Below are positions 10,498-64,000 of a DNA stretch of 64,000 nucleotides, one piece after another. The translations under genes and the position numbers were made by a program. The stretch's first letter is position 1. The number at the start of each line of letters is the position of its first letter. The DNA lies in assembly GCF_026151205.1 (NCBI RefSeq), contig NC_087083.1, positions 1,240,001 to 1,304,000 on the forward strand. Direction: 5' to 3'. Under the pieces are notes generated by a model. It was given only the letters and a program-made list of their open reading frames with translations, had not been told where the DNA came from and ran no database searches. Source of the stretch: Bolinopsis microptera. Lineage: Eukaryota; Ctenophora; Tentaculata; Lobata; Bolinopsidae.

Positions 10498-11469
10498 ATG
10501 ACACGAGGAGAAACGGCACGAAAACGAAATGTCAAGAAAAGTCCAGAGAAAACTGGTGCTGCAGCAGAAACGGATGTAACTGAAGATGAAGGAGACCGTA
10601 GTTGTGAATGCAGAAGGTATATCGCAGAGGAGTTTTCATTAGCTTGTGCAACCTGTGATATGTACTGGCATTATTGCTGTGTTGGACTGACAGGTCTGAC
10701 ACAAGAAGAAGGCGACCATCTGTCTAACTGGCGTTGTCAGAATTGTTTTATATCACCTTACATAAAAAGCAAAAGGACTCAGACCTCGAACCCTGATAAT
10801 GAAGAAACAAAAATACTACGGAATGTTATTAGGCAGGAACTTGAGGCTCTTACACCTTGTATCAGAGGGGTTGTTGAAAATGCAGTGAACGAGAACATTC
10901 CAACTAACTTTGAGTCTGAAAAACCTAAAGAAATATCAAAGATAGTGAACCAGGCTTTCCAGTCCTTCGCTGATGTTACTGCAAATAGTCAGAAGAAAGT
11001 TATGGAAGAAATGAGCCTACAGCAAGCTTCACAAAGTGTTGTCAGTAAAGTTCAGACAAAGATGCACACTGATGCATATGAGCGAAATTTAAGGAAGCTC
11101 AATCTGTGTGTTTTGAATGTACCAGAGAGCAAGAAAGCTAACTCCAAGCTACGCCAGGAAGAGGACTCGAAGTTCTGCAAGGAGACACTAAAGATTGAAA
11201 AAAGTGACTTTATCAGTTGCCATCGTGCAGGTAAAGTGGATCCAGGTAAGCCAGACTCCTGTCGGCCATTGATCATCCAGACAGCTGACGAGGAGTCAGT
11301 TAACTATTATTCCAACCATGGCAAGGGCTGGAAAGAGTCATCATACTGGATAAATCTGGATCTCTGCAGAGCAGACCGAGAGATCCGTTTTTTAGCCAGA
11401 GAAGAGAGGAAGAAGAGGCGGGAAGAAGCAGAGAAGGAAAAGACAGAGAAGAAGGTGGAGAAGAAGTAA
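10498..11469 (+). CDS. LINE ORF1 protein with PHD-type zinc finger
   Basis: 323 residues. Residues about 39-83 carry a Cys/His pattern (CEC, then CATC, HYCC and CQNC) fitting a C4HC3 PHD finger, as described for ORF1 of CR1-clade elements. A helical middle follows. Residues about 200-290 have the hydrophobic pattern of an RRM-like nucleic-acid-binding domain (LRKLNLCVLNVPES, later CHRAGK and CRPLIIQ). The C-terminus is a highly charged Lys/Glu/Arg tail. ORF1 proteins bind element RNA in the ribonucleoprotein. The ATG lies directly after an AT-rich leader and no in-frame upstream ATG competes. The frame is complete, with stop TAA. Confidence 0.8.
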   Translation: MTRGETARKRNVKKSPEKTGAAAETDVTEDEGDRSCECRRYIAEEFSLACATCDMYWHYCCVGLTGLTQEEGDHLSNWRCQNCFISPYIKSKRTQTSNPDNEETKILRNVIRQELEALTPCIRGVVENAVNENIPTNFESEKPKEISKIVNQAFQSFADVTANSQKKVMEEMSLQQASQSVVSKVQTKMHTDAYERNLRKLNLCVLNVPESKKANSKLRQEEDSKFCKETLKIEKSDFISCHRAGKVDPGKPDSCRPLIIQTADEESVNYYSNHGKGWKESSYWINLDLCRADREIRFLAREERKKRREEAEKEKTEKKVEKK

Positions 11470-11498
11470 ATAGCAGTGATAAAGAATGTAGTCAGCCC

Positions 11499-14400
11499 AT
11501 GAATATTTTTTATACTAATGCTAATGGACTATTTAATAAAATTGATGAACTAAAATGTATTCTATCAGTTTATAAATCCATTCATGTAATCTGCATTACA
11601 GAAACTCATTTTAATAGTGATATTTTAGATGCTGAAATTTTTATTGAAGGTTTTAGTATGTTTAGAAAAGACAGAGATTTTAAAATCGATAACTCCACTA
11701 GCAACATAAGTGGAGGTGGAGGTTCTATTATTTATATTAAAAACAGTTGTAATGCTTCATTAGTGAGCTCATTTTTAAAAGCACCAGACTCTTTAGCTAT
11801 TAATGTCAATACCTCTGGTGGATTGATTAGTATTTGTTGTATTTATAGGTCTACCTCTTTGAATTTAAAACAGAATAATATGTTATTATCTTGCATCAAG
11901 AACATATCTAGTGAAAAGAATGTTTTTGAAACCATTATCATAGGAGATTTTAACCTACCTAATGTATCTTGGGAAACTGGTAGTGTAAATAGTGGTATTT
12001 CTAGTAAGAATCAGGTTTTAATGATTCAACAAAAGTATATTGATTTATTTAATGACAGTGGTTTGACGTGGTACTTTACTAACGAAACAACCAGAAGACG
12101 GCTTGTGAAAGATACTCTCCAGGAGAGTCTTCTTGATCAGGTTTTGTATACAAATGATGCTCTTGTCAACGGTTGTAAGATCGTTTCTCCGCTTGGCAAG
12201 AGTGATCATGTTGGGATACTAGTCGAACTGGTTGTTTCGCCCAATACTAACAAAATTCCCAAACAAAAGATTTTAAAGCCTATTTGGGGTAAGATTTCCT
12301 CAGAAGAGTTATTTAACTTTAGTATGAGTAATATTGACTGGGATTATAGTTGTACAAATAATGTTCAAGATATGTGGGTTGAACTACATGGTAAATTGGA
12401 GTCTGTTGCTGCAGCTGTCCCAGCTGCTTCGGTTTATCTCGACAACAGACCTGTCAAGTTGCCATGGAGTACAACTTCACTTAAAAGAATGAGGAAAAAC
12501 AAAGACAAAGCATGGGCTGAATTTGATATTAATCCTTCGGATATTAACTTTAGCTGTGCAAATAGCAAGCAGCATATTTTTGAGGTGGCAGAAATTAAAG
12601 CTAAAGTAAATTATGAAAAGAAGATTACATCTAATTTAAAACAGAATTGTAAATCTTTTTACTCGTATTTGCGTAATAAACGTCAAGTTAAGTCAAGTGT
12701 TGTTTCTTTAGATAGAGGAGATGGTACACGCACAGATAGTTCATCTGAGTCAGCTGAGGTACTTGCTAGTGCCTTTAGTTCTGTGTTTGTGCGTGAACCA
12801 CCTGGCCCTCTTCCCCAAAATGAGAGTTATAACAAAAAAGTTATTGATGATATGGAAATTAGCAGCTCTGATATCAAGAAGCAGCTTTTAAAGCTTAATG
12901 TTTTTAAGAGTTCTGGTCCGGATGGCGTTCATCCAAAGTTGTTAAAATCCTTAGCATACGATGAAAAGTTTGTTGAAGCTGTAACTAAATTATTTGTTAA
13001 GTGTTCAGAAACAGGAGTCCTGCCTGACATTTGGAAGACAGCATCTGTTGTAGCATTGTTTAAAAAGGGTGTTAAATCTGATCCCTTAAATTATAGACCT
13101 GTCTCATTAACTTGTATTTTGTGCAAAGTGTATGAAAAGTTGGTGAGGGCACATTTACTAACATTTTTAGAAGAACGAATTTCAAAGCATCAGCATGGAT
13201 TTGTGAAGGGTAAATCTTGTCTATCTAATCTCTTAGAGACATTTGATAATATTCTTGATATTTTAGACGAAGGTGCACCTGTCGATCTTTTGTATTTTGA
13301 TTTTAGTAAGGCGTTTGACACAGTCCCCCACTTTAGACTTCTATCTAAATTGGAGGGGTTTGGGGTCAAGGGAAAAGTTTTAGATGTTATAAAAGACTTT
13401 CTGACAGACAGAACCATGAGGGTTTGTGTAGAAGGACAATGGTCTGAGGTGAAACACGTGTTATCTGGTGTTCCCCAGGGGTCAGTATTGGGTCCTTTAC
13501 TATTTATTCTTTATATAAACGATTTACCTGACATTGTTAAAAATAAGATTAAATTATTTGCAGATGATCTCAAGTTAGTTTGTAATGCAGCTAACCATGG
13601 AAGTGTATCTGATGATATTTTAGAACTCGAAATTTGGGAGAGTATTTGGCACTTAAACTTCAATCCTGCCAAGTGTAAAGTAGTTCATATTAATCTGAAT
13701 AATAATCCTAACTTAAACTATATTGTAAATGGAGTAGAACTAGAAGTATCTGCACAGGAAAAAGATTTGGGGGTTATTACCCATAGCTCCTTGCTTTGGA
13801 ATGAACAGATAAAAGCATGTATTTCTAAAGCAAATCGTATGATCTGCTGGATTGTAAGGAATTTAGTTATTAGAGAACAGGTTGTAATGATAGCTATTTA
13901 TAAAGCTTTGATAAGACCTCATCTTGAGTATTGTGTCCAATTGTGGAATCCAGTTGCGGCTCATGGAAGTTGGGGGACTGTTTTGGAGCTGGAGAGCGTC
14001 CAGAGGCGGTTTACCCGTCTTATTGATGAGGTGGGTACTCTTCCATACAGCCGTAGACTGGATATCCTCAATCTGACAACGCTGGCAGAGCGGCGAATAC
14101 GTGGGGACCTTATTGAAGCTTTTAAAGTAACTAGTGGTTTGACTGAATATGGATCGGGTTTGTTCAGAATGAGCAGATCTGGTCTTAATCTTGTTTCAAC
14201 CAATAGATGTAGTAAGAGTGTAACTAAAGTGAAGAATCTCCAGTCTTCTTTTCTTCCGGAGCGAGTCATTCCTTATTGGAACAAACTCCCTCCAGATGTC
14301 AAGAACTGCTCGACAGTTTTAAGTTTTAAAGTTAGATTAGAAGGATTTAAGAAAGAAATGATTTCTAAAAACAGTGTAAATGATTTTTATTTTTGGAATG

Positions 14401-14537
14401 TTTCAAATGAAGTTTTAGGGAAAATTGAAGGACCCAGTTATTTAAGCAATAAGGAGAGACATAATGAATATCTTTGGTTTCATCCTTTTGTGGCAAAGAA
14501 GCGTTTTGTAAATCTTTATTCCACTGGGAAGTTTTAA
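11499..14537 (+). CDS. LINE ORF2: AP-endonuclease and reverse transcriptase
   Basis: 1012 residues. The N-terminal exonuclease/endonuclease/phosphatase domain (about 1-240) shows TNANGL, ITETHF, the IGDFNLP motif and GKSDHV, the catalytic Asn, Glu, Asp/Asn and terminal SDH set. The reverse transcriptase (about 510-770) shows YRPVSLT, DFSKAFDTV (catalytic Asp), SGVPQGSVLGPLLF and FADD (catalytic Asp pair). A C-terminal region with a long helical stretch follows. Together these nick target DNA and prime cDNA synthesis from it. Length and domain order fit CR1/Jockey-group ORF2. No frameshift or stop is seen. It starts 29 bases after ORF1 ends. Confidence 0.93.
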   Translation: MNIFYTNANGLFNKIDELKCILSVYKSIHVICITETHFNSDILDAEIFIEGFSMFRKDRDFKIDNSTSNISGGGGSIIYIKNSCNASLVSSFLKAPDSLAINVNTSGGLISICCIYRSTSLNLKQNNMLLSCIKNISSEKNVFETIIIGDFNLPNVSWETGSVNSGISSKNQVLMIQQKYIDLFNDSGLTWYFTNETTRRRLVKDTLQESLLDQVLYTNDALVNGCKIVSPLGKSDHVGILVELVVSPNTNKIPKQKILKPIWGKISSEELFNFSMSNIDWDYSCTNNVQDMWVELHGKLESVAAAVPAASVYLDNRPVKLPWSTTSLKRMRKNKDKAWAEFDINPSDINFSCANSKQHIFEVAEIKAKVNYEKKITSNLKQNCKSFYSYLRNKRQVKSSVVSLDRGDGTRTDSSSESAEVLASAFSSVFVREPPGPLPQNESYNKKVIDDMEISSSDIKKQLLKLNVFKSSGPDGVHPKLLKSLAYDEKFVEAVTKLFVKCSETGVLPDIWKTASVVALFKKGVKSDPLNYRPVSLTCILCKVYEKLVRAHLLTFLEERISKHQHGFVKGKSCLSNLLETFDNILDILDEGAPVDLLYFDFSKAFDTVPHFRLLSKLEGFGVKGKVLDVIKDFLTDRTMRVCVEGQWSEVKHVLSGVPQGSVLGPLLFILYINDLPDIVKNKIKLFADDLKLVCNAANHGSVSDDILELEIWESIWHLNFNPAKCKVVHINLNNNPNLNYIVNGVELEVSAQEKDLGVITHSSLLWNEQIKACISKANRMICWIVRNLVIREQVVMIAIYKALIRPHLEYCVQLWNPVAAHGSWGTVLELESVQRRFTRLIDEVGTLPYSRRLDILNLTTLAERRIRGDLIEAFKVTSGLTEYGSGLFRMSRSGLNLVSTNRCSKSVTKVKNLQSSFLPERVIPYWNKLPPDVKNCSTVLSFKVRLEGFKKEMISKNSVNDFYFWNVSNEVLGKIEGPSYLSNKERHNEYLWFHPFVAKKRFVNLYSTGKF

Positions 14538-20772: not shown

Positions 20773-22855
20773 CTTTTTTTTCTTTTTTTTTTTATTTTTT
20801 TTATTTTTATTAAATACTTTTCAAATTTTACAGAGTACAGCAATAGATGAATATAAAATAGAATCGTTCAAAATATCGCCCCCATCTGTAAAATATGATG
20901 GGCACCCAAACACGGTAAACACATAGTGAACTATGTCCGCAGTAACTTGGACCCATTACATCGAATTAATCTAAATCCAAAAATTTATGAAAAACTATTT
21001 AATAACAAACAAATCCATGGTGAATAACTCTGGATATATAGTCAAAATTGGTATTTCAATACGTCAAATTCCAGATACATTAGATACAGGTCTGATATGG
21101 TCATTAATGTGTGAGGTGTGCGGGTGAAGTGTGATATGATGTTGAAAGTATAGGAAGGTAGATAAAAAAATTAATAAAACAAAAATAATAATAATATGGG
21201 GAGCAAAGAGACTAGGCTAGGCTGTTGTTTCACTATCCAATAAACATTTCCATAGATGCTTAGTGACCTCAGCTTTGAAAACACTTGTAGACACAATCTG
21301 TCTTACCTGTAAAGGGAGTCCATTCCACAGTATATGAGTTCTGTAGAAAAATGATTTTGCCAGTGGGCTATTTGAGGTACATAAGGTGTGTGAATTCTGA
21401 CTTAACTTAGGTAAAATTGATGACACAATAGACAGACTGTCGAGGTGGCAACGTCTTAGTCGAGAAGTGCCCTGATATAAAGTGAGATAGTGAGGCAGCC
21501 ATACAGGAATTAAATTGTTCAGAACTTTGTGGAAAAAAATAAGATCATTCAAGTCAAACTTTTGAGACAAAGGGAGAATGTCGACAAGCTTGCACTTTTT
21601 GACATATTGCTCAGGTGGATAACTGCGGCCCTCTTCAGACAGAATCCATTTAATAGCTCTCTTTTGGAGACTTTCTAATTTATCACTAAGTGATTTATTA
21701 CAAGGGCGCCATATTATGGAACAATTTTCGAATTGGCTACGAATCAGGGAGAGGTAAAGCGCCCGGCGACGTTTCTGATCAATGACAATATGGCCATCTC
21801 TTCTGACCATACCAAGTTGTTGGCAGGCCTTAGTATAAATTCTGTCGCACTGACTATTCCAACTTAGCTTAGGAGTAACATCGACTCCAAGATCTTTTTC
21901 TAACTCTACATACACAAGAGGAGAGCCATCAAGATTATATGCGAATGGAGGAGATAAAGATGGTTTTCCTGAAACAATAAGCACTTTACATTTTGCTGGA
22001 TGGAATCGCATTTTGTTTCTAAGTGCCCAGTCAGAGAGATAGTCTATATCCATTTGTAAATTGGTATTATCAGAAGATGAATGTATTTTACGCCAGATTT
22101 TTGTATCATCGGCATACAAAACAATATCAGTATTATCCGAAAGGCCAAGAGGAATATCATTGATAAACAATACAAAAAGTAAAGGACCAAGGATAGAGCC
22201 CTGGGGGACACCAGAATTAACTGAGAGGGTAGATGACATCTCATTACCAATAACCACTCTTTGGTAACGGCCTTGAAGGTAATTGGTAAGAAATTTGAGA
22301 AGTGTACCATCAATGTTATATAAGGTCTTTAGCTTATGAAGAAGGATATCATGATTTACAGAATCAAATGCCTTAGCAAAATCAAAATACACAACATGAT
22401 TGATAATGTTTTCGTTAAGAGACAATGCCAGGCTATCACAAAAATCAACCATATTGGTTGTGCATGACTTGTGCTCTAGAAAACCATGCTGCCTGGGATC
22501 AAGAAGGGTACTTGTCAAAGAAAGCAGTTTACGTTTAACAATGCGCTCAAAAACTTTCATGACTAAACAAGTAAGGGATATTGGTCTATAGTTTTCAACC
22601 TCACTTTTCTTACCTTTCTTAAATATTGGGACAACATTTGCAAGTTTCCATTCTTGTGGAATGTAGCCACTGTTGTAGGATCCACGAAAAATGCATGTTA
22701 GAGGGTAAGCTAAACCTACGGAACAATTTCTTAGAATTTTACCGTGTATGCCATCTGGTCCCTGGGCTTTATTTGAATTAATATTTGAAAGAAGCTTACG
22801 AACATCCCGATGATCGAAGTCAATATCAAAATCAACATCATTGACATGTTAGCGT
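20773..22855 (-). mobile_element. 5'-truncated LINE (Jockey/CR1-like), antisense
   Basis: Reverse-transcriptase reading runs from about 22850 to the stop at 21217. The element's A-rich 3' tail appears as the T-run at 20773-20815. The endonuclease and ORF1 are missing, the usual result of incomplete reverse transcription. Confidence 0.85.
21217..22850 (-). pseudogene. Reverse-transcriptase fragment of the truncated LINE
   Basis: The open part begins near 22850 with NINSNKAQGPDGIHGKIL and continues through YIPQEWKLANVVPIFKKG, YRPISLT, VYFDFAKAFDSV (catalytic Asp), SGVPQGSILGPLLFVLF and YADD (catalytic Asp pair). It ends in the usual C-terminal region. No frameshift was found, but the N-terminal endonuclease is absent and there is no start codon at the beginning of homology. 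It cannot make a complete ORF2 protein. Confidence 0.85.
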
Positions 22856-26532: not shown

Positions 26533-29500
26533 ATGCCGTCTAACAACGTGAGTAAATGTAGTCTTGATTTTAATATTTTAATAATATCATGATTTGAATT
26601 GAGCAGTGTGCATCAGTGGCCGTGAACCACTGCTACCTACTACCCAAACAGTTCTATTATAGTAGTCTACCCTAGTACCTAGTCTACCCCAGTAGTCTAC
26701 CCCAGTAGTCTACCCTAGTAGTCTACCCGAGTAGTCTACCCGAGTAGTCTACCCCAGTAGTCTACCCCAGTAGTCTACCCGAGTAGTCTACCCCAGTAGT
26801 CTACCCGAGTAGTCTACCCGAGTAGTCTACCCTAGAAGTCTACCCTAGTAGTCTACCCTAGTAGTCTACCCCAGTAGTCTACCCGAGTAGTCTACCCGAG
26901 TAGTCTACCCTAGTAGTCTACCCTAGTAGTCTACCCTAGTAGTCTACCCCAGTAGTCTACCCCAGTAGTCTACCCGAGTAGTCTACCCTAGTAATCTACC
27001 CTAGTAGTCTACCCTAGTAGTCTACCCTAGTAGTCTACCCTAGTACCTAGTCTACCCCAGTAGTCTACCCCAGTAGTCTACCCCAGTAGTCTACCCCAGT
27101 AGTCTACCCTAGTAGTCTACCCCAGTAGTCTACCCTAGTAGTCTACCCCAGTAGTCTACCCTAACTTACCTAGTTTACCCCAGTAGTCTACCCTAGTACC
27201 TAGTCTACCCCAGTAGTCTACCCCAGTAGTCTACCCTAGTACCTAGTCTACCCCAGTAGTCTACCCTAGTACCTAGTCTACCCCAGTAGTCTACCCCAGT
27301 AGTCTACCCCAGTAGTCTACCCTTGTCAATTCCTTCCACTTCTTTAGATCTAGAGTAAAAACGTTAAGGCGATTATTGATGAAGGTATATAGAGGTACAA
27401 GGGTAGCCACGAGGTTGGTCACGTGTGTCGGGTAGTCACGCGGGTCGAGTAGTCACGTGCAAGAGTCACGAGGGTCAAGTAGTCACGTGGGTAGTCACGT
27501 GTGTCGGGTAGTCACGCGGGTCGAGTAGTCACGTGCAAGAGTCACGAGGTCATTGGGGTACAATTAAAGATTATCATCTAGTATTTGGTCGGCAAAGGTC
27601 ATCATGAGAGAACTACTGTTTTATATTCAGATTTCTGTGACACAATTTTAATTGGGCTCGATTTTAATTGGGCTAGAAATCCTGGACGTAGAATGTAATT
27701 TATTTACAAATTGTAATAAAGTAATATATTTAAATACAAATAATACACGTAATATATAATACATAACATATAGATAATATATGGATAATATATAAATATA
27801 AATAAAGAAATAATATATTTAATATATAAATGATATGTAAATATAAATAATGATAAATATATCAGTTAAACATATCAGAAACCACATTCCTTACATTCCT
27901 ATTAGTTGTGTCAGAGCTAAGATAACATAAAATATGCTGATTGGTTACATTGTTTTTAAATTTTTACCTTTTACTGAGAATTGTTTACAGCAGCTGTTCG
28001 TATAAAATATGGGAAAATACCGCACAGTGTAATTAAATTGCAAAATGCTGTAAATATCATAATATTTAAAGTATGTGTAAAACTCATTTTTAATTGGACA
28101 AACTAAAAAAACAATAGAAAAAAGGGGTAATTTACATAAAGCATTCAAATCAGCCGAGATGGGAATGCAATGGGAGGAGCCAAGAGGATCCTCAAAAAAC
28201 ACCCACTAGGCCATATTACGACCCATAACCCCACATTAAACCCTGCTATACTAGGCCCCACTAACCTACTGTTCTGTCCAGTACGTATCCACGATGGGTT
28301 CGGAGAAGATGTCGGTTGTGTTCTCCATCTCTCATCAGCCCTCTGCTCTTGTCAAAGCACTCACTCCATTCCAGGTAATCATGACGTCCTTACAGACAAT
28401 GGTGACGTCATTACAGACAATGATGACGTCATAATAAGGCAATAATGGCGTCATTACAGACAATGATGACGTCATCACAGACAATGATGACGTCATCACA
28501 GACGATGGTGACTTGTTATTGATTGATTTTGTCGTCGTATTGCTACTTAACATTGTGATTTAATTTACGAACGTATAAATACGTGTGGCAGTTAAATTTT
28601 TACCTGAAGGCGTTTGGTAACGTTGATGACGTCATTAATTAAGTAGTGCAAGTGACATCACAATGTTTATTTCAGCAAAACAGCATAAACCTGACTCACA
28701 TAGAATCTCGGCCGCTTGCGGAGGACGAGAATAAGTACAAGTTCCTGTGCAACTTGGAGATCTGTAATGAGGACGACGAAAAGAGATTTAAGTAAGTGAA
28801 AGTATTTTGAAAATATGTATGTAATAAATTAATAATTAGTCATAGGCTATCCATTATCGGTATGAAATCTTTTATCTAGATAAACAGATAAAGATTTAGG
28901 TTTTATCTAGATAAAACCGATAAAACCGATAATTTTTCTGCTGAAGGCCAAAGCCAAAATGTTTTCCAAATTTCGCAAAAACTAATTGTCGACTTTTATT
29001 ACTGTTTACCAGTAATCTTGCTAAAGTACCATTTCCTTTCTTTTGAAAATATTAGAGCATCAGTTTTCTTCTCCGGGGAGCAGAAGTGCACCAGTTTTCT
29101 TCAAAACAGTAGACCAACGGTTTTCTTCTCCTAAGAACAGTAACGCAATAGTTCTCTTCAAAACAGTAGACCACTGGTTTCCTTCTCCTGCGAACAGTAA
29201 CGCACTAGTTCTCTTCAAAACAGTAGACCACTGGTTTCCTTCTCCTGAGAACAGTAACGCACTAGTTCTCTTCAAAACAGTAGACCACCGGTTTTCTTCT
29301 CCTGAGAACAGTAACGCAATAGTTCTCTTCAAAACAGTAGACCAAGGGTTTCCTTCTCCTGAGAACAGTAGTGCACCAAATACCAATTCTCCTCGAAACA
29401 GTAAAGCATTTAAAGTGATTCAGTGAACCGTTTTCTTATCCTGTCGATAACTTGGAGCAACAGATTCCTTCTCCTGAAGACAATGTTTCACGCCCAGAAC

Positions 29501-32500
29501 ACTTACGGAATTCAATTGAGTGCCCTGCCGGTATTTTTGACTCTTGTTAACAGTAACATGCTCGTTCCTGTCTCCAGAATGGTTGTAAGGTAAAACGCCA
29601 GCACCCTCAAGAGAACAATGTCAATAACCTTCTCTGGATTTCTACAGTTCATACAGTTCTACAGTTCCATAGGTATACAAATGTAAATAAACCTCTTAAG
29701 CTCACATCTAAGTAAACTACCTCTTCTATCATACTAGAAGACGTTTGGGACTGTTTCTTGGATTACTTGGGAAGGCAAAAACACTAATATTTCTTTACAA
29801 TTTTACGGTATTGTGGCAGTATTTTCGGTAATATCTAGTGAATTTTTATACCGATAAAAATATGTTTTATCTAGATAAACAGATAACTTTTTTTAACGAA
29901 TTATCGGAGATAATTATCGGTTACGATTATCGGAGTGGATAGCCTAATTAGTCAATTAATTAAGTGGGCTTAAACCCAGATAAGTGGGTCTAAATATTTC
30001 TATTCTACCGTGTTTTGTACAATAAAGTATAGATCTCGCCTTACAGGCAGTTTACCCATGATAGCCCGGTAGCCGGTAGGTGTGTACTGTGTAGCCACAA
30101 TCAGAAATTGCACAGCCTCGGCCCATAGATCTAATAAAATATTATTCGTGTTTCTCGAAAATTTGCGACTTATAGGGCCGAGTTTAATGAAAGAAACTAC
30201 CTCTAGTGTAGTCCCATGACTACACTTCTTTTTTTTTCCTTCTCTCTTTTTTACGATGCTGAGCTTGGAAAAACGCAAGTAAGGCTGTCAGAATCACGCC
30301 ACACGCGAAGCGAAAGAGGTCTGGATTAGTTACATTTTATATTTGCCGGCAGTAGTTCACAGAGCCGGTCAGAAGCTAGCCGGTTCAGTGAACTTTACCA
30401 GCACCAAACCCCCCGTTAGTTCTCTTTAATCCTTATAAAGTCTAAACGAAGCTTCTCGATGACATTCCTCGAATACCTCTTTAACATGACGTCATATTTT
30501 ATTTTTACGTAAACTCACAGAACCCAGTGGTTATCTCCGCTAAAACCGTTTTTCCTTGTACTTCTAGTAAAATAGTAAAAATACTAAAATAATACTAAAA
30601 AAATAAAATATTTAAATAGTTAAAATGCTGGGCCTAGAATAAGGGCTTTACCTTATAGTTACTGCGTTAGGTAATAAAAGATTAAGCGATGTTATTGGAG
30701 TCTCCGCTATAGAGATAATTTAGAGATAATTTAGAGATAATTTAGAGATAATTTAGAGATAATTTAGAGATAATTTAGAGATAATTTAGAGATAATTTAG
30801 AGATAATTTAGAGGTAGACCTCTACGTTTTAGGCTCGAAATCGGTGGATTACTGTCTAATAGGTTAAAACTGCAGGGGGTGGAAAGTAAATTATCTTGTC
30901 CCTTCAGTCAATAATCTTGTTCCCAGGAAAGTAAGTTTAATCTTTTCCCTCAGTCAATAATCTTGTTCCCCCAGGAAAGCTATCGGAGAGTTAAAAGAAA
31001 TGTCAGGTAACGACTGTGTAAAGGTTCTCTCCCGGCGAGATATTGACACGCAGGACTCAGAAGAAGTGCCCTGGTTCCCCATTAAGATAGCTGAACTGGA
31101 CAGATTCGCTTCTCAGATTCTCAGGTAAAATGGGGGCCGAGGTGATTAGGGGGGGACGGGGGCGGGGGTTCTCCAATGCAATGGACAGATCCGCTTCTCA
31201 AATTCTCAGGTAAAATGGGGGCCGAGGTGATTAGGGGGAGCGGGGGGGGCGGGGGTTCACCAATGAAATGGACAGATTCGTTTCTCAGATTCTCAGGTAA
31301 AATGGGGGCCGAGGTGATTAGGGGGGGGGCGGGGGCGGGGGTTCTCCAATGCAATGGACAGATTCGCTTCTCTAATTTTCAGGTAAAATGGGAGCCGAGG
31401 TGATTAGGGCGGGGGGGGGCGGGGGTTCTCCAATGCAATGGACAGATTTGCTTCTCAGATTCTTAGGTAAAATGGGGGCCGAGGTGATTTGGCGGGGGGG
31501 CTGCCGGCTTGGGCGGGGGGTTCTCCAATTCAATGGACAGATTTGCTTCTCAGAATGGCTGAATGGGGGGGTCTTCAACTAAGAAAGGTTTTAACTTTAA
31601 GAGATTAAGTAGTCATTATGATTTATCATTTCGACCCTCTAAGTCTAACAAAGAGCATCACTCCAAACCATTTTGACATATCAGTTACATATTTTGTCAT
31701 ATCAGTTACGGATCAGAGCTGGATTCTGACCATCCAGGGTTCACTGACGAGATCTACAGAAAGAGGAGGAAGATGTTCGCTGACATCGCCTTCAACTATA
31801 AACAGTTAGTTTTAGTCTTAAAGTTGTTAGGCCCTTAATCTAATTTAATTTATCTTTAATTTATCTCTAATTTACCTTTAATTTACCTTTAATTTACCTT
31901 TAATTTATCTTTGATTTATCTTTATATCTGCTGATACCACTTTACAACTTAAAAGATAATAATTGTACTTGATCTAACCGCCTCCCCACTACCCAGCGGA
32001 GAACCAATCCCTCACGTTGAGTATAACGAAGCGGAGCTGGCAACTTGGCGGACTGTTTTTACAAAACTTTCTACTTTGTTTGAAACTCACGCATGCAAAG
32101 AGTTTAGGAAGGTTCGTTCAAGAAGGTTCAGGAAGGTTCAAGAAGGTTCAGGAAGGTTCAGGAAGGTTCAAGAAGGTTTATCCCTGAGTAAAGTTCTTTG
32201 GACACGTGATAAGGATTAATCAATTCAGTTAACCAATTGAAGCTTGGAAAACTATTACGTGTTAAAACAAATATAAAATGTGGTTCGCTCCCTACCTCAC
32301 AAGTATCCAGATCCATTAACATTATATTTTCTAGATCAAATTATCTTCCAAAATTTTGGATATTATGACCTTGAATTTTGAAATCCTGCGGCGATTCGTT
32401 AAATAACTCTAAACGTTTCATACTATTTTTGGTACATAAATCATTGACAAACTAGACACGTGACAGTGTTAAACCGATTAAACTAGACTAGCGTCTGTAT

Positions 32501-35500
32501 GTGGTATTTCCCTTGTCTCAAATACCAAACTGATGTACAGGTGTGGCCGCTGCTGGTACAGAACTGTAACTACAACAAAGACACCATCCCCCAACTTCAA
32601 CAAGTCTCCCAGTTCACCAAGGACTGTACCGGCTTCACTCTTCGTCCTGTAGCGGGTTTGCTATCGTCACGTGACTTTTTAGCTGGCCTGGCTTTCAGGG
32701 TCTTCCATAGTACCCAGTATATCAGACATGGTGCTAATCCTTTCTATACGCCAGAACCGTGAGTGTAGTTTACTTGACAATAGGTTATCAATTAGCTGCC
32801 TAGCAGTTGTTAATTAGTTCTTAATTAATTGTTAATTATTCGTCTGTACTCTGTTAGTTGGTAATAAATGCTCACAATACTTTAATTTGAGAACTTGTGA
32901 AAACGAAGGACCATCGACACAGCTATATTCTCGTGTCTTGTCTTTTACATTTACATTACTTGCGTCTTAACTTTCCAGCGTTCCGACTAAATTTAGTGTG
33001 CGCTCAGCGCTTACAGCATAGTGAGAAATATACTGAAACTTCAACATTCCAACATTTCAGGGATGTATGCCACGAGCTAATCGGACACGTGCCCCTTTTT
33101 TGTGATCCTGAGTTTGCTGCATTCTCCCAGGTACATTTCACACATTTATTAGACATTAGTTCTGTTCGTCAAGCTAGAATATATGGGATTGTGTTCGCTT
33201 CCTTAAAGTAAATTATATAAAATTTGTTGTACACATTTTATTTAATCCTGCACTCGTCGTTTAACATCGTTTGTTTATTTTTCTTGGAGATTAAAATCGA
33301 AAAATTCTCTAACTCGAGAGTCTTGCATAAATATGTTGGTTATTTTGTGCGAATTGGCATTTGGCCAAGCCACAATGTTGAATTTGGCGAGTCAAGCAAG
33401 TTAAACAGAAAATTCTGGGAATTCAACGTAACGCGCGATCACCGTACAAAGTTATAATGGTTAAAGTTATTTGGAAACCGCTTTCCATAACATTATGAAA
33501 ACGCGCGCAAATTGTTAATCGCGTCCAATGTCGATCCGGCCGCCTATTTTATTGTCGCCTATTTAGTTCACTTGATCATATTATGTTTGTTCGTTTATAG
33601 AACCGGTCCCCAATCTCGTATTGGAAAATGACTAAACTCAATTCTGAGTGTGAATACGGGTGGTACCTGCAAGTGTGTTCATTTGTCATTAAGCATATAG
33701 AGTTCTGTAAAACTGCAGCTGTTACAATTGTGCTAGAGTATTTTTAGTATTTACGATCGATAGTATTTACGATCGATATCTCGATCCCTACATGATATGC
33801 TTCCAAAATTTAAATCTCCAACTTTCTGCACAATGTACTGGAATGTTTGAAAAAAAAGTGATACAGAAATAAAATCAACAATTTAAGTTTAGGAAAGTAA
33901 AATTAATTCCCTGGTTTCTTAATTTAATTCTGCTTTAAAGTCGGAAAAACAAAGTATATAATGTCGATACCAAACCGATTGTTGAGTGTAACGTTAGTAT
34001 TTCCTCGTTTATAATACATTTATACTATCAAAACAGCTGAGCAATTCTTCTAACGTTTGATATACTAGTGGCCTAGGAAGTCCCATCTGAGGTTAATCCC
34101 CAGTTCAGTAAACTACGGCTTCCAGGCAGAAGACTGTAATCGAAAGAAAGTGAGGGAACTTGACTTACTTGACTTAAGGCGGCTTCAGCGTCCGAGTATT
34201 GATGCGCTGTCTCCATAAAACTCTATCCGCCATAAGTCCGCCCATTTCTCCAGTGTCGTTGAGACCCGTGTCAGCTCGTAGGCTATCAACATAGGTCATG
34301 GCTGGTCTCCCCCTACTCCGCACCCCATGAGTTGGTTCCCAGAGTAGCAAGCGGTTTGCGACTAGTTCTGGGTGCCGGTGGATATGGCCTGCTAGTCGCA
34401 TCCTGCGCTCTTAGATCTTCATGGTTGCTCTTGGTAGGTTGCCATAGACTTCTTTGTTGGTTTTTCGCTGCTTCCAATCCACATTAAGTGCCATCCTTAG
34501 CATTCTAGTGTAGCAGCCATCAATGCGTTTCTTCAATTGCTCTGTCAACGTCCACGTTTCAGAACCATAAAGAAGTATTGACTCCACAGTAGCAACAAAT
34601 AGACGGATCTTCAGTCCTCTTCTAAGGTCAGACTTCCACATCTTCTTTAGCTTGTGGCAGGTTGCCCAAGCCTTAGCTTTTCTGACCCGCAGGTCCCTCT
34701 CTGTTGTTGCTATCCAAGCTCCAAGGTAAACAAAGTCTGTCACCTTTTCCAGCTGGTTTCCAGAACAGCTATTAAGACTAGTCATGAACTTAGTTTTAGT
34801 GCCGTTCATGGCTAGCCCAACACTCAGTGCTGCTTTCTCAAGCCTGTCCAGGAGTAGTTTTGCCCCTTCAATGGTATCAGTGATAAGGGCAACATCATCT
34901 GCAAACTCGATCTTCTCGGCACCAATCCTTCTACTCCGTGCAGGCCTGAGAGTGAACCCAGAGTCCGAGTCATCATCGTCTATAGACACTGTCATGATAT
35001 AGTCAATCACGATAATGAACAAGTACGGGGCAAGAGTGTCTCCTTGCAGTACTCCAGCCAGGATATCAAAAATTTCTGTTATACCATCGGCTGTAACTAC
35101 TTTAGCCTTTGTGCTCGTATAGATACCCTCAATGAGCCGCACTATGGCTTCTGGTATGCCATATGCTTTCAATATCTTCATAAGCAAACCCCTATGCACA
35201 CTATCGAACGCCTTTTTGAAATCTATGAAAACCATGGTGGCCTTAAGATTTTTGGCTCTAGCACCCTCCATAATTCTTCGTAGAGCAAGGATGTGCGATG
35301 TTGTAGAGCGCCCAGGTCTAAAGCCATTCTGGTTGTCCCTTAAAACTTCCTCAAGACTTGGCTTCATCCTGTTCAGCAACATTTTGTTCAGAGTTTTACT
35401 GACTATCGATGTCAGAGATATTCCTCTGTAGTTGTCGGTCTTAGTGAGGTCCCCTTTCTTTGGCACAGGAACAATATTACTGAGCTTCCATTGATCGGGC

Positions 35501-38231
35501 ATGAGACCATCACATAATGCATCGTTGCAGAACTTCAGGATGACGTCATCGATGTCCACCCTCTTCATCACTTCAGGTGAGATACCATCATCACCATAAG
35601 CTTTGCCTTCTACTATCTGCTTTTTGGCAAGACGTAGTTCCTCAATGGTGAACGGGCCATCCTCTATATTCAGTGGAGGGTGTATATTCCTGATCGGAAT
35701 ACTATGAGGGAAGGTTAACGACAATTGTTGAGCGTATCGAAAGGGATGACAAATGAAACTCGTAGATGGATGGTGAAAGATAGAAAAGTATTGACAATGA
35801 CAATGCTTAAGAACAAAACTTCCTCTACTTAGGATAACAAGGCCCTACGACCTGACTTAGCACGAGAGCGGAGAGGCCGTCCGATTAAGACTATGTATCT
35901 CTCCGAAGGGAGAATCAGCAATGAGCAAGCCTTAAACAATATGAGGAAGTTGAATTATTCGTCTAGCTGTCCCAAACAAGATTTAACACCTCTTAAACTC
36001 GAAATCTTACTTACTTGTACCTACTTGAAAAGGTCTCCTCCTAGTCGTTGGAGTGGCCTGCACTCGAAAATCGCTTGTTTATATAATAGCGTGACTCTCT
36101 TGACTCTGTTCGTAATTCTTTGCAATTCTTGGAGTACCGCTCCTGATATCGGATTACCAAAAGTGTTTAATCCACAGTGCTAAGCTGCCGTTCTCGGTTG
36201 TCATGGTAACTAATAAGCGTGGCTTTTAATTGAGAATGGTAAGAAACACTTCTTACATGAGCGATGATAGCTAAGTAGTTGATTCCTGGGTTACAGCGTC
36301 CTCCTGATTCCTCAGTCTTTGAATGTCTAGTTCACTCATATAATAATACCATAATATGTGAAATCATGTATATAAATATTGAGACAATAAATACCGCCTA
36401 GACACCCTGCGTGCATCGGCTAAAGAGCCTGGTACGTAGTGTTACAGTAGTCAGTACACTGTACAGTGTACCGACGTACCGTCACGTTAGTGTTACATTG
36501 ACGTCACGTTAGTGTTACAATGACGTCACGTTAATGTTACAATGACGTCACGTTAGTGTTACAATGACGTCACGTTAGTGTTACAATGACGTCACGTTAG
36601 TGTTACACTGACGTCACGTTAGTGTTACAATGACGTCACATAAATGTTATGGTGACGTTAATAACGGTAACACGACATCTGTCCGACAGCGACATCTGTC
36701 CGACAGCACTATTTTCGTGTGTTTGAAGTGATATCTCAAATTTGGCACATAGAAATTTATCCAAACTTGCACAAATTATTTGTCTTAAAGCTATCTTACT
36801 ATCTAGAAAGTTTCAAGAAAATCGTATCGTTGGATCTCCAGATATATGCTTTGGAACCTCTGAAAACCACCGCATTGGATATATTTTTTGTGTTTAAGGT
36901 AATATCTTAAATTTGGCACATAGAAACTCGCTCAAACTTACACAGATTATTCGTCCTATAACCACTATACTTTATGGAAAGTTTCAAGAAAATCGTACGG
37001 TAGGATCCGACATAAACTATTGTCCAAATAACCTATTTTCTGAGTCGGACAGATGTCGCTGTCGGACAGATGTCGGCCAATCGTAAATAACAGACCCAAA
37101 CTCACCATGAAATAGGTATGACCATATGCTCGCGAACGTCGCGCGACTGCTCGCGGACGTCGCGCAACTGTTTCGAGTCTCATAGCGTCACGAAATAGTC
37201 ATGTGACGTCACGATAATGTTACAATAACGTCATGTTGATGTTACAGTGATGTCACGTTAATGTTCAGTGACGTCACGTTGTTGTTACAGTGACGTGACA
37301 TTAGTGTTACAGTTAGTGTTACAGTAAATAACGGAGCCAAACCCAACAGGAAATAGGACTTGCCTCGCTAGGCGCCCCGGATGAGTGGATTGAGAAACTA
37401 GCGACCCTCTACTGGTTCACTATAGAGTTCGGGGTCTGCAAGGAGGAGGGAGCTCTCAAGGCGTATGGAGCAGGTAAAATTATGAGATTAGCAATTAGTT
37501 CATTAGTTAATTCACTGATTATCTATTTAACTTTAAGTAGTTGATTGGAGCGCTGTTTTTTGTTAGTTATGTAAATCCTAATAGCAATACTAATTATAAG
37601 CAATTAATGCTGCTTGATGAGCTTATATTTTTTGAAAGATTCATTGGTTCTACTTCTAATATTAATTATCTAGTTATATTTCTTAAGTAAACGTATCCAA
37701 ATGATTAATCAATTAAATTAATTTACAGGCTGCATCTCCTCAATCGAGGAGCTGGAGAATTGTATTTCCGACTCGTCCCAGAAATTGCCGTTCGAACCTG
37801 AGAACATTTGCACCACCAAGTATCCCATCACTACTATCCAACCTGTTTACTTCGTAGCCCCTTCCTTCGCTGAAGCTAAACGCAAAGTCAGGTATGTTGA
37901 GAGTGCCAGTTTTTGTGTTAGTTTCTGTAAGATTATTAGGCAGATAACAATTTAAAATAACTATACCCATCTATAAAATTATTCCTTGTCAGTTTTATTT
38001 AATAAAATCCAATCGCCCGATTAGTTATAATCAGCACTAATCAGCGCTAATTATCCGGTAATTCCCAGGGAGTTCTCTTCACAGATCCCACGACCCTTCA
38101 CGGTGCACTACAACCCTTACACGCAATCCGTTCAACTCATCAACAAACGAGCAAACTGCGTGAAAATGATAAGAGATCTGGCTAACGAAATGAAGACATT
38201 GGAAGACGCTGTTAGAAAACTGGAGGATTAG
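26533..38231 (+). CDS. PAH: Phenylalanine hydroxylase (aromatic amino acid hydroxylase)
   Basis: Iron- and tetrahydrobiopterin-dependent enzyme converting phenylalanine to tyrosine. Exons in phase: 26533-26547, 28282-28374, 28676-28791, 30975-31124, 31706-31804, 31997-32111, 32541-32758, 33061-33130, 37350-37473, 37729-37891 and 38069-38231, about 441 residues (human PAH 452). An N-terminal ACT-type regulatory region (NLTHIESRP) precedes the catalytic domain, which shows [50 protein letters not shown], the iron ligands HELIGH and the Glu of YWFTIEFG, and [11 protein letters not shown]. The C-terminal tetramerisation helix ends the protein. PAH is chosen over tyrosine or tryptophan hydroxylase by overall resemblance. 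The 15-base first exon (MPSNN) is inferred; otherwise translation could start at 28294. Introns hold many arrays, a LINE, a hAT-like element and a MITE. Confidence 0.92.
26660..27330. repeat. 12-bp minisatellite AGTAGTCTACCC in PAH intron 1
   Basis: More than 50 units with C, T or G at the last position and occasional AGTACCTAGTCTACCC insertions that recur at intervals. Confidence 0.95.
27400..27552. repeat. Degenerate GTCACG repeat with five CACGTG E-boxes, PAH intron 1
   Basis: GTAGTCACGTG and GTCACGAGG blocks; a roughly 75-bp unit is present twice. CACGTG is the bHLH E-box core; any function is inference. Confidence 0.8.
28378..28512. repeat. About 21-bp repeat with TGACGTCA sites, PAH intron 2
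   Basis: Units of ACAGACAATGATGACGTCAT. Four contain the perfect palindrome TGACGTCA (CREB/ATF site); one more lies at 28625. The array begins four bases after the exon 2 donor. Confidence 0.85.
28843..29946. mobile_element. hAT-like non-autonomous element, 1104 bp, in PAH intron 3
   Basis: Termini TAGGCTATCCA / TGGATAGCCTA are flanked by the 8-bp duplication ATTAGTCA (28835-28842 and 29947-29954). Subterminal TTATCTAGATAAACAGATAA and CCGATAAT motifs occur at both ends. No transposase; the middle is a 57-bp minisatellite. Confidence 0.85.
29075..29400. repeat. 57-bp minisatellite inside the hAT-like element
   Basis: About six units containing AGACCACTGGTTTCCTTCTC and GAGAACAGTAACGCACTAG. 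Period divisible by three gives open frames on both strands; I do not call them genes. Confidence 0.92.
30709..30815. repeat. 11-bp repeat TAGAGATAATT in PAH intron 3
   Basis: Nine to ten copies, each with an AGATAA (GATA-type) motif. Confidence 0.95.
30900..30985 (+). repeat. Duplicated splice acceptor of PAH exon 4
   Basis: CAGTCAATAATCTTGTTCCC followed by AGGAAAG occurs twice, about 52 bases apart. The second copy is the real acceptor (exon from 30975); the first is followed by GTAAGT four bases into the would-be exon. Confidence 0.85.
31098..31560 (+). repeat. Tandem copies of the PAH exon 4 tail plus its 5' splice site
   Basis: The end of exon 4 (GGACAGATTCGCTTCTCAG, ATTCTCAG) with the intron start GTAAAATGGGGGCCGAGG is followed by four further similar copies at roughly 75-90-bp spacing and one degenerate copy without the donor. 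G-rich linkers lie between. Only the first donor (31125) is needed to join exon 5 in frame. Confidence 0.9.
32098..32180 (+). repeat. 12-bp repeat across the PAH exon 6 donor
   Basis: Exon end TTTAGGAAG with intron start GTTCG is followed by six GGAAGGTTCA or AGAAGGTTCA copies, each a possible weak donor after AAG. Confidence 0.85.
33587..33675 (+). repeat. Dispersed repeat, copy 2 of a pair with about 23285-23375
   Basis: Same landmarks as the first copy (CCCCAATCTCG, GTGAATACGGGTGGTACCTG), here in PAH intron 8. Confidence 0.75.
34139..35770 (-). mobile_element. 5'-truncated RTE-type LINE, antisense in PAH intron 8
   Basis: Reverse-transcriptase homology runs from about 35760 to 34174 and ends in a short AGTCAAGTA tandem tail at the left. 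The endonuclease is missing. Confidence 0.85.
34174..35724 (-). pseudogene. RTE-type reverse-transcriptase fragment with one in-frame stop
   Basis: The reading shows [33 protein letters not shown] (catalytic Asp), [16 protein letters not shown] and FADDVAL (catalytic Asp pair), then [16 protein letters not shown] and a C-terminal [13 protein letters not shown]. These fit the RTE clade. A TAA at 34411-34413 interrupts an otherwise continuous frame that resumes at once and ends at 34174. It is 5'-truncated, so inactive on its own. Sense is opposite to PAH. Confidence 0.88.
36470..36660. repeat. About 23-bp repeat with seven TGACGTCA sites, PAH intron 8
   Basis: Units GACGTCACGTTAGTGTTACA. Seven carry the perfect CREB/ATF palindrome. 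Related degenerate units continue at 37200-37320 and after the stop codon near 38280. Confidence 0.93.
36675..37075. mobile_element. MITE-like inverted-repeat element, PAH intron 8
   Basis: Ends carry GACATCTGTCCGACAGC twice in tandem, inverted at the other end. The middle is two diverged copies of a roughly 175-bp unit (AATTTGGCACATAGAAA, GAAAGTTTCAAGAAAATCGT). No ORF. Confidence 0.8.
37085..37349 (+). repeat. Duplicated acceptor region of PAH exon 9
   Basis: GTAAATAACAGACCCAAACT with ATGAAATAGG (about 37083-37115) resembles the real acceptor region GTAAATAACGGAGCCAAACC with GAAATAGG (37325-37357). The material between is GACGTCACG-type repeat. Confidence 0.65.
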
Positions 38232-41324: not shown

Positions 41325-47026
<5,702 letters not shown>

Positions 47027-53283: not shown

Positions 53284-54108
53284 GTACCAAAATAGAATGA
53301 TTCATTTATATAATTTTAATGATTGTTCAGGTGGGAAATAACTATCATTGAACCGCGATACTAAATTAATGATGAATCATGAAAGTAAACTAGTCTGAGA
53401 AAAAAATGATATGGAGAGTGGACTAAGAAATTTCAGATCTGAAAAGGCTATAACCGGGAAGCATTCAATTTAAAATTAACACAGAAATTGGGTACAATCC
53501 GACCGGCTATTAACTTGACTCATGAATGTTATGTAATTTTTGCAATATGTAAAGATAAAATTAGCATCTACATTCTACATGTAGAACTAGAAGCGCCACA
53601 ATTTTTGGGAAAAGGGGTTACAAAAGGGTGCATAATAAATATTGTTATTAATTTTTGGAATCAACACACTGCTTTATACAAAAATAATCGTCTCTTTTCA
53701 ACAAAGTAATAAACTCTTATTATTTGACGCTGCTCCTAATATATTATAATTCGAAAAGATCTGGCTTTTGACGCAACAGTTACAAATTTATATAACTACT
53801 GTTTTATAGGCCAGTAAGGAAACACACCACTGAAACAAACCTCGGACCCTCTATTCAATTCAAGGCACTAAACGCAAAACGACCACTGAACGACCACTGA
53901 ACAAGTAAGTCATTAAAAATATTAATTGAAATTTGATAATTATGTACCACGAGAGCTGTGTGATAATATAAGAACCTTGATACGCGCGAAAAGTGGCATG
54001 CAACGTATGTCAATAAGAACCTATGTTGATCTTGGAATGTTCGATCTTTCAATCTGCATCAATCCCCCTTACAGCTGATTTCATTTCAGATATATCAATT
54101 GATCAACA

Positions 54109-56295
54109 ATGGATAACTATTTGGAAAATGGCAAACAAATATACGAAGAATATTGCTCAACATCTGAAAACCTGCCCACATTCACAATGCTTCCAAGAGC
54201 ACCAGAGCAGACCTACATTGATGTATATCCAGATGAAGATCAGCCCGGTCCCAGCTTTACAGATGACAGACGACATCAATTAGACTACGAGACTGAAGTT
54301 AAGGTGTATAGGGCTTTGGAAGAGGTAGATGGAAACTTCATTGTTCTTCACAGTTTCAAATACACGCATCATCAATATCGTTTGTGTGCAGGTGAACGTC
54401 ATATCCGAAGTGGATGTTCTAAATGTAAAAGGAAGAATGCAGAAAATCAGGAGGGGGAATGTGACTTTCTCATCATTTGTGCGAACAGTTTCATTATTAT
54501 CGAGGTAAAGAACATGGATAATGTTGGAGAGGTTTTGGAATGTGAACCAGACTTCCACCTGTGTTCAATTGGCGAAGACTGGCAACCTCAGTGTAACAGA
54601 GACCAGCAGTTGAAAGCATTAATTGGAACGTTCCAGAAATCAGTCAAACAAAGAAACAAGATTGTGGAACTGATCAAGTGTATGGATAAGGATGCAAACA
54701 TTTTTCAGTTTACTGCCTATCCTAATTTTAGTAAACAGTTTAAAGATGAGTTTAAATTTAGTGAGATTACAGAACTCCCGTTAAGTGATGATGAACTGTC
54801 AACTATCATATTTGAAGAGGACCTTTGTCGCAACGAACTTGATGCTGCTTGGTGGGCAGCAAATGTAACTCTGGCCAATTATTCATCTTCAGATTCCCAT
54901 GAGAGAGTAAGGAACATTTTGTTAGCTATTTGGGCCACAGAGAGAAAAACGTGTGATAAATCCAAGTGCAGTTTAGGACGATGTATTATGGATGTCAACA
55001 AACAACTTAAGGAAGGTCGCATTACTTTTGAGCCTAAAAAAGGTAAAAAACGTAATCAAAATCCCGCAGTTGTCAAAGCTCCCGATGTTATCAGAAACAA
55101 TTCTAATGTGGAAAACCTAACAGTAGAACAACACAATGCTTTCAAGTCAAAAGAGAATTTGTTGTTGATTAACGGTCCCGCAGGGGCGGGCAAAACTGTC
55201 ATATTGTGTGGTAAAATACTGCAACTGTTAGAGTCTGATAAGAACAACAAAGTTGTGGTATTTAAGTATACTGGACCCGGAAACAATTCACAGCATTATC
55301 AAAGTGCGTTAAATAACGCTAAAATAAAATACGAACTGATAAGCACAGATGAACTTGAACACACTCCAGAAGAACTAGCTAATCTTATAACAGAGAGTTT
55401 GTGTGATGTTATTATTGTGGAGATAACAGGTTATCCAGATACCAGATATTTAACAGATAGACTCAGTGTACTAAGTGGTTATAATTTGTTTGTTGATGAT
55501 ATACAGGCAGTTATTGATTACGATACCACAGCTGAAAAGTGCACTTTATTGATTAACAAGTTAAAAGACTTATCAGCAGATAAGATTGTGTGGATAGCAT
55601 GTGACATTGTCCAGGTTTGGTCGGTATATAACACAGATCTCATTTCAATGATAGCTAATGTACTTACTGATATATTAGTACCTCATCAGAGGACTACTTT
55701 ATCTAGTAACTTGAGAAATACGTTTGATTTATCGAATATTTTATCTGTAATCAGAGATCAATTCATTAAATTATGTTCTCTTAAATCAGATATTTTAGAT
55801 ATTATTTTACCTTCACAATCACCTGGACACTTTATACACGGTACATTACCTGTTATACATGTTTTTAATGATTGTAATGTTGATAGTATTGTAAGTGTTA
55901 TTAATATTGATTTAGATAGATTGTGTGCTACACATGAATTAGATTATTCTGATATAGGTATACTATATACTGATATCAATATTAGTGGTGTAGTACCACT
56001 AGTTAGGAACAGTGTTAATATGAAATGTAAGAACACTGCTAGTAAGATTGCAGTGTGTGACATTGTGTATTGTGCCTCTAGTGAGTGGCCTGCTGTAATA
56101 GTACTGTGTGAAGTGTTGGGTAGTAGAGAGGAGCTGGACCTGACTACACTTTACTTAGCGTTATCAAGAGCACGTGTACACTGCTCTGTTGTTATATACC
56201 CAGAGGAGGGTGAAACATTAGACGATACACCTTACATGTTACCTTTGTTAGATAAACTGAGTAACTACGCTCGCATTATATGGTATAAGAATTGA
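54109..56295 (+). CDS. NERD-domain nuclease/helicase-like protein
   Basis: 728 residues in one coding exon. The NERD (nuclease-related, PD-(D/E)XK) region at about 64-150 shows YETEVKVYRALEE, a Cys-rich insert SGCSKCKRK, ECDFLII and IIIEVKN, the acidic and ExK catalytic pattern. A superfamily-1-like ATPase follows: TVEQHNAF, Walker A GPAGAGKT (about 358), a Walker B-like LFVDDIQ, and a C-terminal LYLALSRARVHCSVV resembling helicase motif VI. This layout is common in bacterial NERD helicases and also occurs in some invertebrates; the substrate is unknown. The ATG follows a 5' UTR intron: donor GTAAGT at 53905, acceptor TTTCATTTCAG ending at 54089. Lack of coding introns, unlike its neighbours, could mean transfer or retroposition. 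DDIQ in place of DEAQ is unusual. Confidence 0.8.
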   Translation: MDNYLENGKQIYEEYCSTSENLPTFTMLPRAPEQTYIDVYPDEDQPGPSFTDDRRHQLDYETEVKVYRALEEVDGNFIVLHSFKYTHHQYRLCAGERHIRSGCSKCKRKNAENQEGECDFLIICANSFIIIEVKNMDNVGEVLECEPDFHLCSIGEDWQPQCNRDQQLKALIGTFQKSVKQRNKIVELIKCMDKDANIFQFTAYPNFSKQFKDEFKFSEITELPLSDDELSTIIFEEDLCRNELDAAWWAANVTLANYSSSDSHERVRNILLAIWATERKTCDKSKCSLGRCIMDVNKQLKEGRITFEPKKGKKRNQNPAVVKAPDVIRNNSNVENLTVEQHNAFKSKENLLLINGPAGAGKTVILCGKILQLLESDKNNKVVVFKYTGPGNNSQHYQSALNNAKIKYELISTDELEHTPEELANLITESLCDVIIVEITGYPDTRYLTDRLSVLSGYNLFVDDIQAVIDYDTTAEKCTLLINKLKDLSADKIVWIACDIVQVWSVYNTDLISMIANVLTDILVPHQRTTLSSNLRNTFDLSNILSVIRDQFIKLCSLKSDILDIILPSQSPGHFIHGTLPVIHVFNDCNVDSIVSVINIDLDRLCATHELDYSDIGILYTDINISGVVPLVRNSVNMKCKNTASKIAVCDIVYCASSEWPAVIVLCEVLGSREELDLTTLYLALSRARVHCSVVIYPEEGETLDDTPYMLPLLDKLSNYARIIWYKN

Positions 56296-63966: not shown

Positions 63967-64000
63967 TCATCACGTTTTAAGATTGTCGCAGAATAATCCC

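Follow-up and report, generated by a model that had tools for sequence, protein, structure and literature searches.

Minisatellite arrays spanning splice junctions in a ctenophore: mirages probably made by ordinary local duplication

In the ctenophore Bolinopsis microptera, minisatellite arrays often meet splice junctions, yet no junction hot spot is required. We consider it probable that these arrays are the outcome of ordinary minisatellite duplication, which is tolerated at junctions, and that a splice-site-specific process is unneeded.

The window, i.e. the whole 64,000-nucleotide stretch of DNA that was analysed (C12:1240001-1304000), is part of a 264.65-Mb genome. Its PAH, Hsp90 and peroxiredoxin genes were modelled with a spliced protein-to-DNA aligner that allowed GT-AG introns only. 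The PAH probe was the rat protein, which recovered coding exons 2-11 (in the numbering of the original prediction, which proposes a first exon near 26533). Tandem arrays were called with TRF, on which their edges depend, and then set against the junctions. Further genes were located and modelled elsewhere in the genome with human housekeeping proteins; the human sequences (all probes except that for PAH) served as alignment probes only. The final test set, a small sample of conserved genes only with homology-based models, comprised 26 genes, including those of the window, and 169 introns no shorter than 100 bp; three duplicated gene pairs each entered the statistics with a single copy.

Arrays at the junctions of the window genes

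When TRF calls were compared with the spliced alignment, 5 of the 18 PAH junctions were found to lie within tandem arrays, namely the donors of exons 2, 4 and 6 and the acceptors of exons 4 and 5. The features of the PAH gene are as follows.

28309-28374 (+): PAH exon 2, the part aligned to rat PAH, donor at 28374/28375 (spliced alignment)
28373-28512 (+): 21-bp array of 6.4 copies with a 64-bp higher order, beginning at the exon 2 donor (TRF)
30881-30979 (+): 46-bp repeat of 2.1 copies across the exon 4 acceptor, 30974/30975 (TRF and exon map)
30975-31124 (+): PAH exon 4 (spliced alignment)
31092-31554 (+): 87-bp array of 5.2 copies across the exon 4 donor, 31124/31125 (TRF)
31670-31709 (+): 21-bp duplication of 1.9 copies across the exon 5 acceptor, 31705/31706 (TRF)
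31706-31804 (+): PAH exon 5 (spliced alignment)
31997-32111 (+): PAH exon 6 (spliced alignment)
32102-32178 (+): 10-bp array of 6.3 copies across the exon 6 donor, 32111/32112 (TRF)
36673-37075 (no strand): element bounded by perfect terminal inverted repeats of 32 bp, in PAH intron 8
37083-37116 (+): diverged 34-bp copy of the region around the exon 9 acceptor, matching it at 29/34 positions and lacking the AG
37203-37325 (+): 22-bp array downstream of the acceptor copy, ahead of the real exon 9 acceptor (TRF)
37350-37473 (+): PAH exon 9, acceptor at 37349/37350 (spliced alignment)

The original prediction, that minisatellites repeatedly begin or end at splice junctions, had named a duplicated exon 4 acceptor, a multiplied exon 4 donor, a repeated exon 6 donor and an array starting four bases after the exon 2 donor, all of which we recovered; it had overlooked the duplication at the exon 5 acceptor. 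The exon 4 acceptor repeat takes in 5 exonic bases, and the exon 4 donor array extends 33 bp into the exon, with at least four recognisable donor copies (the real one counted) that retain both GT and full strength. Reading through beyond the first donor of intron 4 leads to a stop in 1-3 codons. Two of the PAH introns with junction repeats presumably lie at positions shared with human.

The exon 9 acceptor, also claimed to be duplicated, does have one diverged copy (local alignment score of 43, versus 25 for the best of 300 shuffles), but this single copy, some 240 bp upstream of the real one, is not in tandem with it and has lost the AG. The 22-bp array downstream of the copy is related to another array (36480-36639), and the element with terminal inverted repeats sits between that second array and the acceptor copy. 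Each 32-bp terminal repeat is a nearly doubled 17-bp motif. Intron 8 also holds a reverse-transcriptase-like frame (window 34411-35844, minus strand; RVT_1, E 4.8e-32), and other long frames of this kind, judged by eye, occur at 11304-14537 (+), 21217-22848 (minus) and 62264-63976 (minus).

The two other window genes had been said to carry arrays at their junctions as well.

42183-42325 (+): 34-bp array of 4.2 copies in Hsp90 intron 1 (TRF and exon map)
169-4029 (-): 33-bp array of 117 copies in a peroxiredoxin intron (TRF)

The Hsp90 array stops 8 bp short of the exon 2 acceptor (exon start 42334), and therefore it is indeed at the junction but abuts it without spanning it. The peroxiredoxin array stops 2 bp short of the exon at 41-166, with the acceptor inside its partial last unit. 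Several frames of this array are free of stops, and a minus-strand open frame of 1353 amino acids crosses it into the next exon; the stop-free frames are probably a by-product of the 33-bp unit. Elsewhere in the window, a 730-amino-acid open frame (54103-56295, +) matches the NERD nuclease-related domain above the Pfam cut-off, along with weak UvrD-like helicase matches below the cut-off.

Junction-spanning arrays in other genes

Outside the window, we found five further junction-spanning arrays, in the GAPDH, MDH2 (two arrays), GNB and V-ATPase A genes.

GAPDH intron 2, donor: 31 bp, 18.8 copies; the unit carries the exon end ATCACAG
MDH2 intron 3, donor: 31 bp, 3.8 copies
MDH2 intron 5, donor: 47 bp, about 32 copies; each unit comprises 39 nt of exon and the donor
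GNB intron 3, acceptor: 130 bp, 3 copies, with four acceptor copies; the unit comprises the acceptor and up to 65 nt of exon
V-ATPase A copy b, intron 6, acceptor: 49 bp, 26 copies; the unit comprises the acceptor and 13 nt of exon

Together with those of PAH, the spanned junctions amount to 6 donors and 4 acceptors, and the predicted growth of introns by tandem copying that takes in their edges is thereby seen in several genes. The edges of the GAPDH and V-ATPase A arrays were set by reading the sequence, because automatic extension of the TRF edges missed both arrays. V-ATPase A occurs twice on C10, with about 166 kb between the copies; copy b, the array of which had already been seen, was substituted for copy a because the latter has a gap, a run of N that comes after its initial repeats of the 49-bp acceptor unit.

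The most extreme array is that of MDH2 intron 5, where GT is retained and the splice signal is at full strength in 28 of 28 recognised donor copies, and where reading beyond the first donor again meets a stop in 1-3 codons. In GNB intron 3, the AG is kept in all four acceptor copies. Among the modelled genes, VCP, EEF2, AHCY, ADH5, ATP5B, PKM and others have no junction-spanning arrays, and the arrays are concentrated in certain genes (MDH2, GAPDH, GNB and PAH).

Gene copies allow arrays to be compared. In an array that begins 4 bp after a donor, one V-ATPase A copy has one unit more than the other. The enolase copies on C4 and C188, the loci of which are 98.3% identical, have their arrays in common with copy number unchanged; the C188 locus is probably the other haplotype of the C4 locus, i.e. 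the two are alleles. Two inverted copies of CSNK2A-like exons with identical scores lie about 30 kb apart (C1:24911613-24911801 and C1:24943684-24943872). More than 20 iGluR-like matches occur genome-wide, many of them in long uninterrupted frames, and therefore in apparently intronless genes; the closest protein to one of them is Mnemiopsis ML032222a (E 3.5e-62).

Position and origin of the arrays

An array was taken to touch a junction when it lay within 15 bp of it, and the test on independent genes left out PAH, Hsp90 intron 1 and peroxiredoxin intron 3. In these independent genes, touching arrays make up 15 of the 52, versus 6.6 expected when positions are shuffled within introns (p=0.0002), an enrichment that had been foreseen. 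This shuffle inflates significance because it disallows duplications across exons. We therefore also used a junction-blind duplication model, in which a unit may land anywhere in the intron or across a junction, and which expects 10.8 touching arrays (p=0.07 for the 15 observed) and 6.4 crossing arrays, of which 6 were observed. Under the same model, touching arrays of at least 60 bp number 11 versus 7.2 expected (p=0.04), all arrays including those of the discovery genes 22 versus 13.4 (p=0.002), and PAH alone, a gene picked for its arrays, has 5 crossing arrays versus 1.3 (p=0.002). As several window sizes and nulls were used, these boundary p-values are nominal. A within-intron shuffle can thus point to a mechanism at splice sites where a junction-blind null has no need of one.

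Coverage gives a similar picture, in that it climbs from the junction inwards with no peak at junctions: arrays (TRF score of at least 50; V-ATPase A copy a) overlap 6.0% of the 13-bp windows at donors, 3.0% at acceptors and 8.7% in the intron interior. A 24-mer scan for local duplicates over junctions also showed depletion, though short exonic parts, such as that of GAPDH, escape it. The fraction of the unit that is exonic varies between about 0.1 and 1, so that the register at the junction is not fixed, and similar arrays that lie wholly within introns are common, including deep inside them. Minisatellites cover 14.8% of introns and 7.4% of flanking DNA in the modelled genes, i.e. about a twofold difference. 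TRF coverage is 0.2% in exon interiors versus 14% of intron bases, which fits the survival of junction-spanning copies alone.

The original prediction had suggested a shared mechanism, such as slippage, DNA breaks or RNA-mediated repair at splice sites. In its general form, this would be a process, linked to splicing or transcription, that seeds the repeats and grows introns from their edges by way of co-transcriptional R-loops, of nicks or breaks at splice sites, or of RNA-templated repair. The enrichment over within-intron shuffles, the weak excess of long arrays under the blind model and the roughly doubled array coverage of introns relative to flanking DNA are in its favour, but the coverage is below the interior value at junctions rather than peaking there, crossing arrays equal the blind expectation, the exonic share varies and similar arrays lie deep within introns. 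We found no supporting evidence for the RNA-mediated repair that had been suggested. From this balance, such a process is unlikely, and so is, to the same degree, the view that long minisatellites preferentially start or persist at splice junctions, with splicing or transcription feeding edge-wise intron growth.

Delivery of the repeats by minisatellite-carrying mobile elements, or by introner-like elements inserted at proto-splice sites, appears very improbable. The 11-bp TAGAGATAATT array does have relatives elsewhere on C12, TGACGTCA-rich units recur along PAH, and PAH intron 8 holds the element with terminal inverted repeats; but the junction-spanning units hold the host gene's own exon sequence, which contradicts a mobile-element origin for these units, and a genome-wide search that ignored very common words with PAH 30500-31500 returned no relatives apart from the 11-bp array. 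An assembly artefact, or misplaced exon boundaries, is the least probable explanation by a narrow measure: arrays are difficult to assemble, and a run of N lies near the array of V-ATPase A copy a, but the models track conserved proteins with GT-AG junctions, both assembled enolase copies carry the same arrays, and the pattern is present in several unrelated genes.

We propose instead that local tandem duplication, by replication slippage, unequal exchange or break repair, would generate minisatellites at any position, from the following lines of evidence. The units carry the gene's own exon sequence and were therefore made locally; a splice-site-specific mechanism is unneeded, because the blind model predicts 6.4 crossing arrays and 6 were seen; and the one-unit difference between the V-ATPase A copies is what slippage or unequal exchange would give, one or other of these being the likely engine. 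Counted against blind duplication are the excess of long arrays (11 vs 7.2), that of all arrays (22 vs 13.4) and the unchanged enolase arrays.

According to this proposal, a unit straddling a junction would be tolerated, because a normal mRNA would still come from the copy beside the exon body, which is the first donor or the last acceptor, and the extra copies would turn into intron. The intron would then lengthen as units are gained and lost and as its copies are homogenised, while coding constraint would fix the exonic copy, which may be why arrays appear to start or stop at the junction. All this would be harmless provided that one intact boundary persists. A conserved protein results when the outermost copy is used, as judged from the protein continuity of the gene models; we infer that only this copy is spliced, which would imply recognition by exon definition.

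Comparison with mirages and other routes of intron change

The junction-spanning arrays reported here are mirages, an already described phenomenon that is here seen in a further lineage. In amphioxus, mirages are minisatellite-like duplications of intron-exon boundaries, described in the globin, Adh3, TnC and PGBD5 genes (PMC3087553, PMC3902484). In both cases, the units span exon-intron boundaries at donors and acceptors alike, the AG/GT signals are kept in the copies and the unit lengths overlap (10-160 bp in amphioxus and 10-130 bp here). The copy number, however, reaches 26-32 here versus 3 and 6 units in the amphioxus globin gene BflGb6, the host belongs to another phylum, and splicing was checked by RT-PCR in amphioxus whereas here it is inferred from gene models. 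The introns modelled in the ADH5 genes, which are homologous to the mirage-bearing Adh3 of amphioxus, hold no mirages. In the open-access papers that were searched, a scope that excludes most subscription papers, we found no report of mirages outside cephalochordates.

If mirages occur in a ctenophore too, they are no lancelet oddity, and would represent a general route for the lengthening and shifting of introns. Furthermore, introns in which a donor or acceptor recurs about 30 times almost unchanged amount to natural experiments on how splice sites are chosen, where intron definition predicts the use of the innermost copies and exon definition that of the outermost ones.

The arrays also resemble intron gain by tandem duplication (Drosophila cases, PMC2891723), in which duplicated AG/GT exon sequence becomes intron, the difference being that existing introns are here lengthened at their edges. 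With introner-like elements, they share the property that repeated sequence makes up intron DNA. The dispersal expected of such elements was not seen with PAH 30500-31500, for which the search that ignored very common words matched only the 11-bp array elsewhere; introners represent one element copied to scattered sites, whereas the units described here are local and contain the exon sequence of their host gene.
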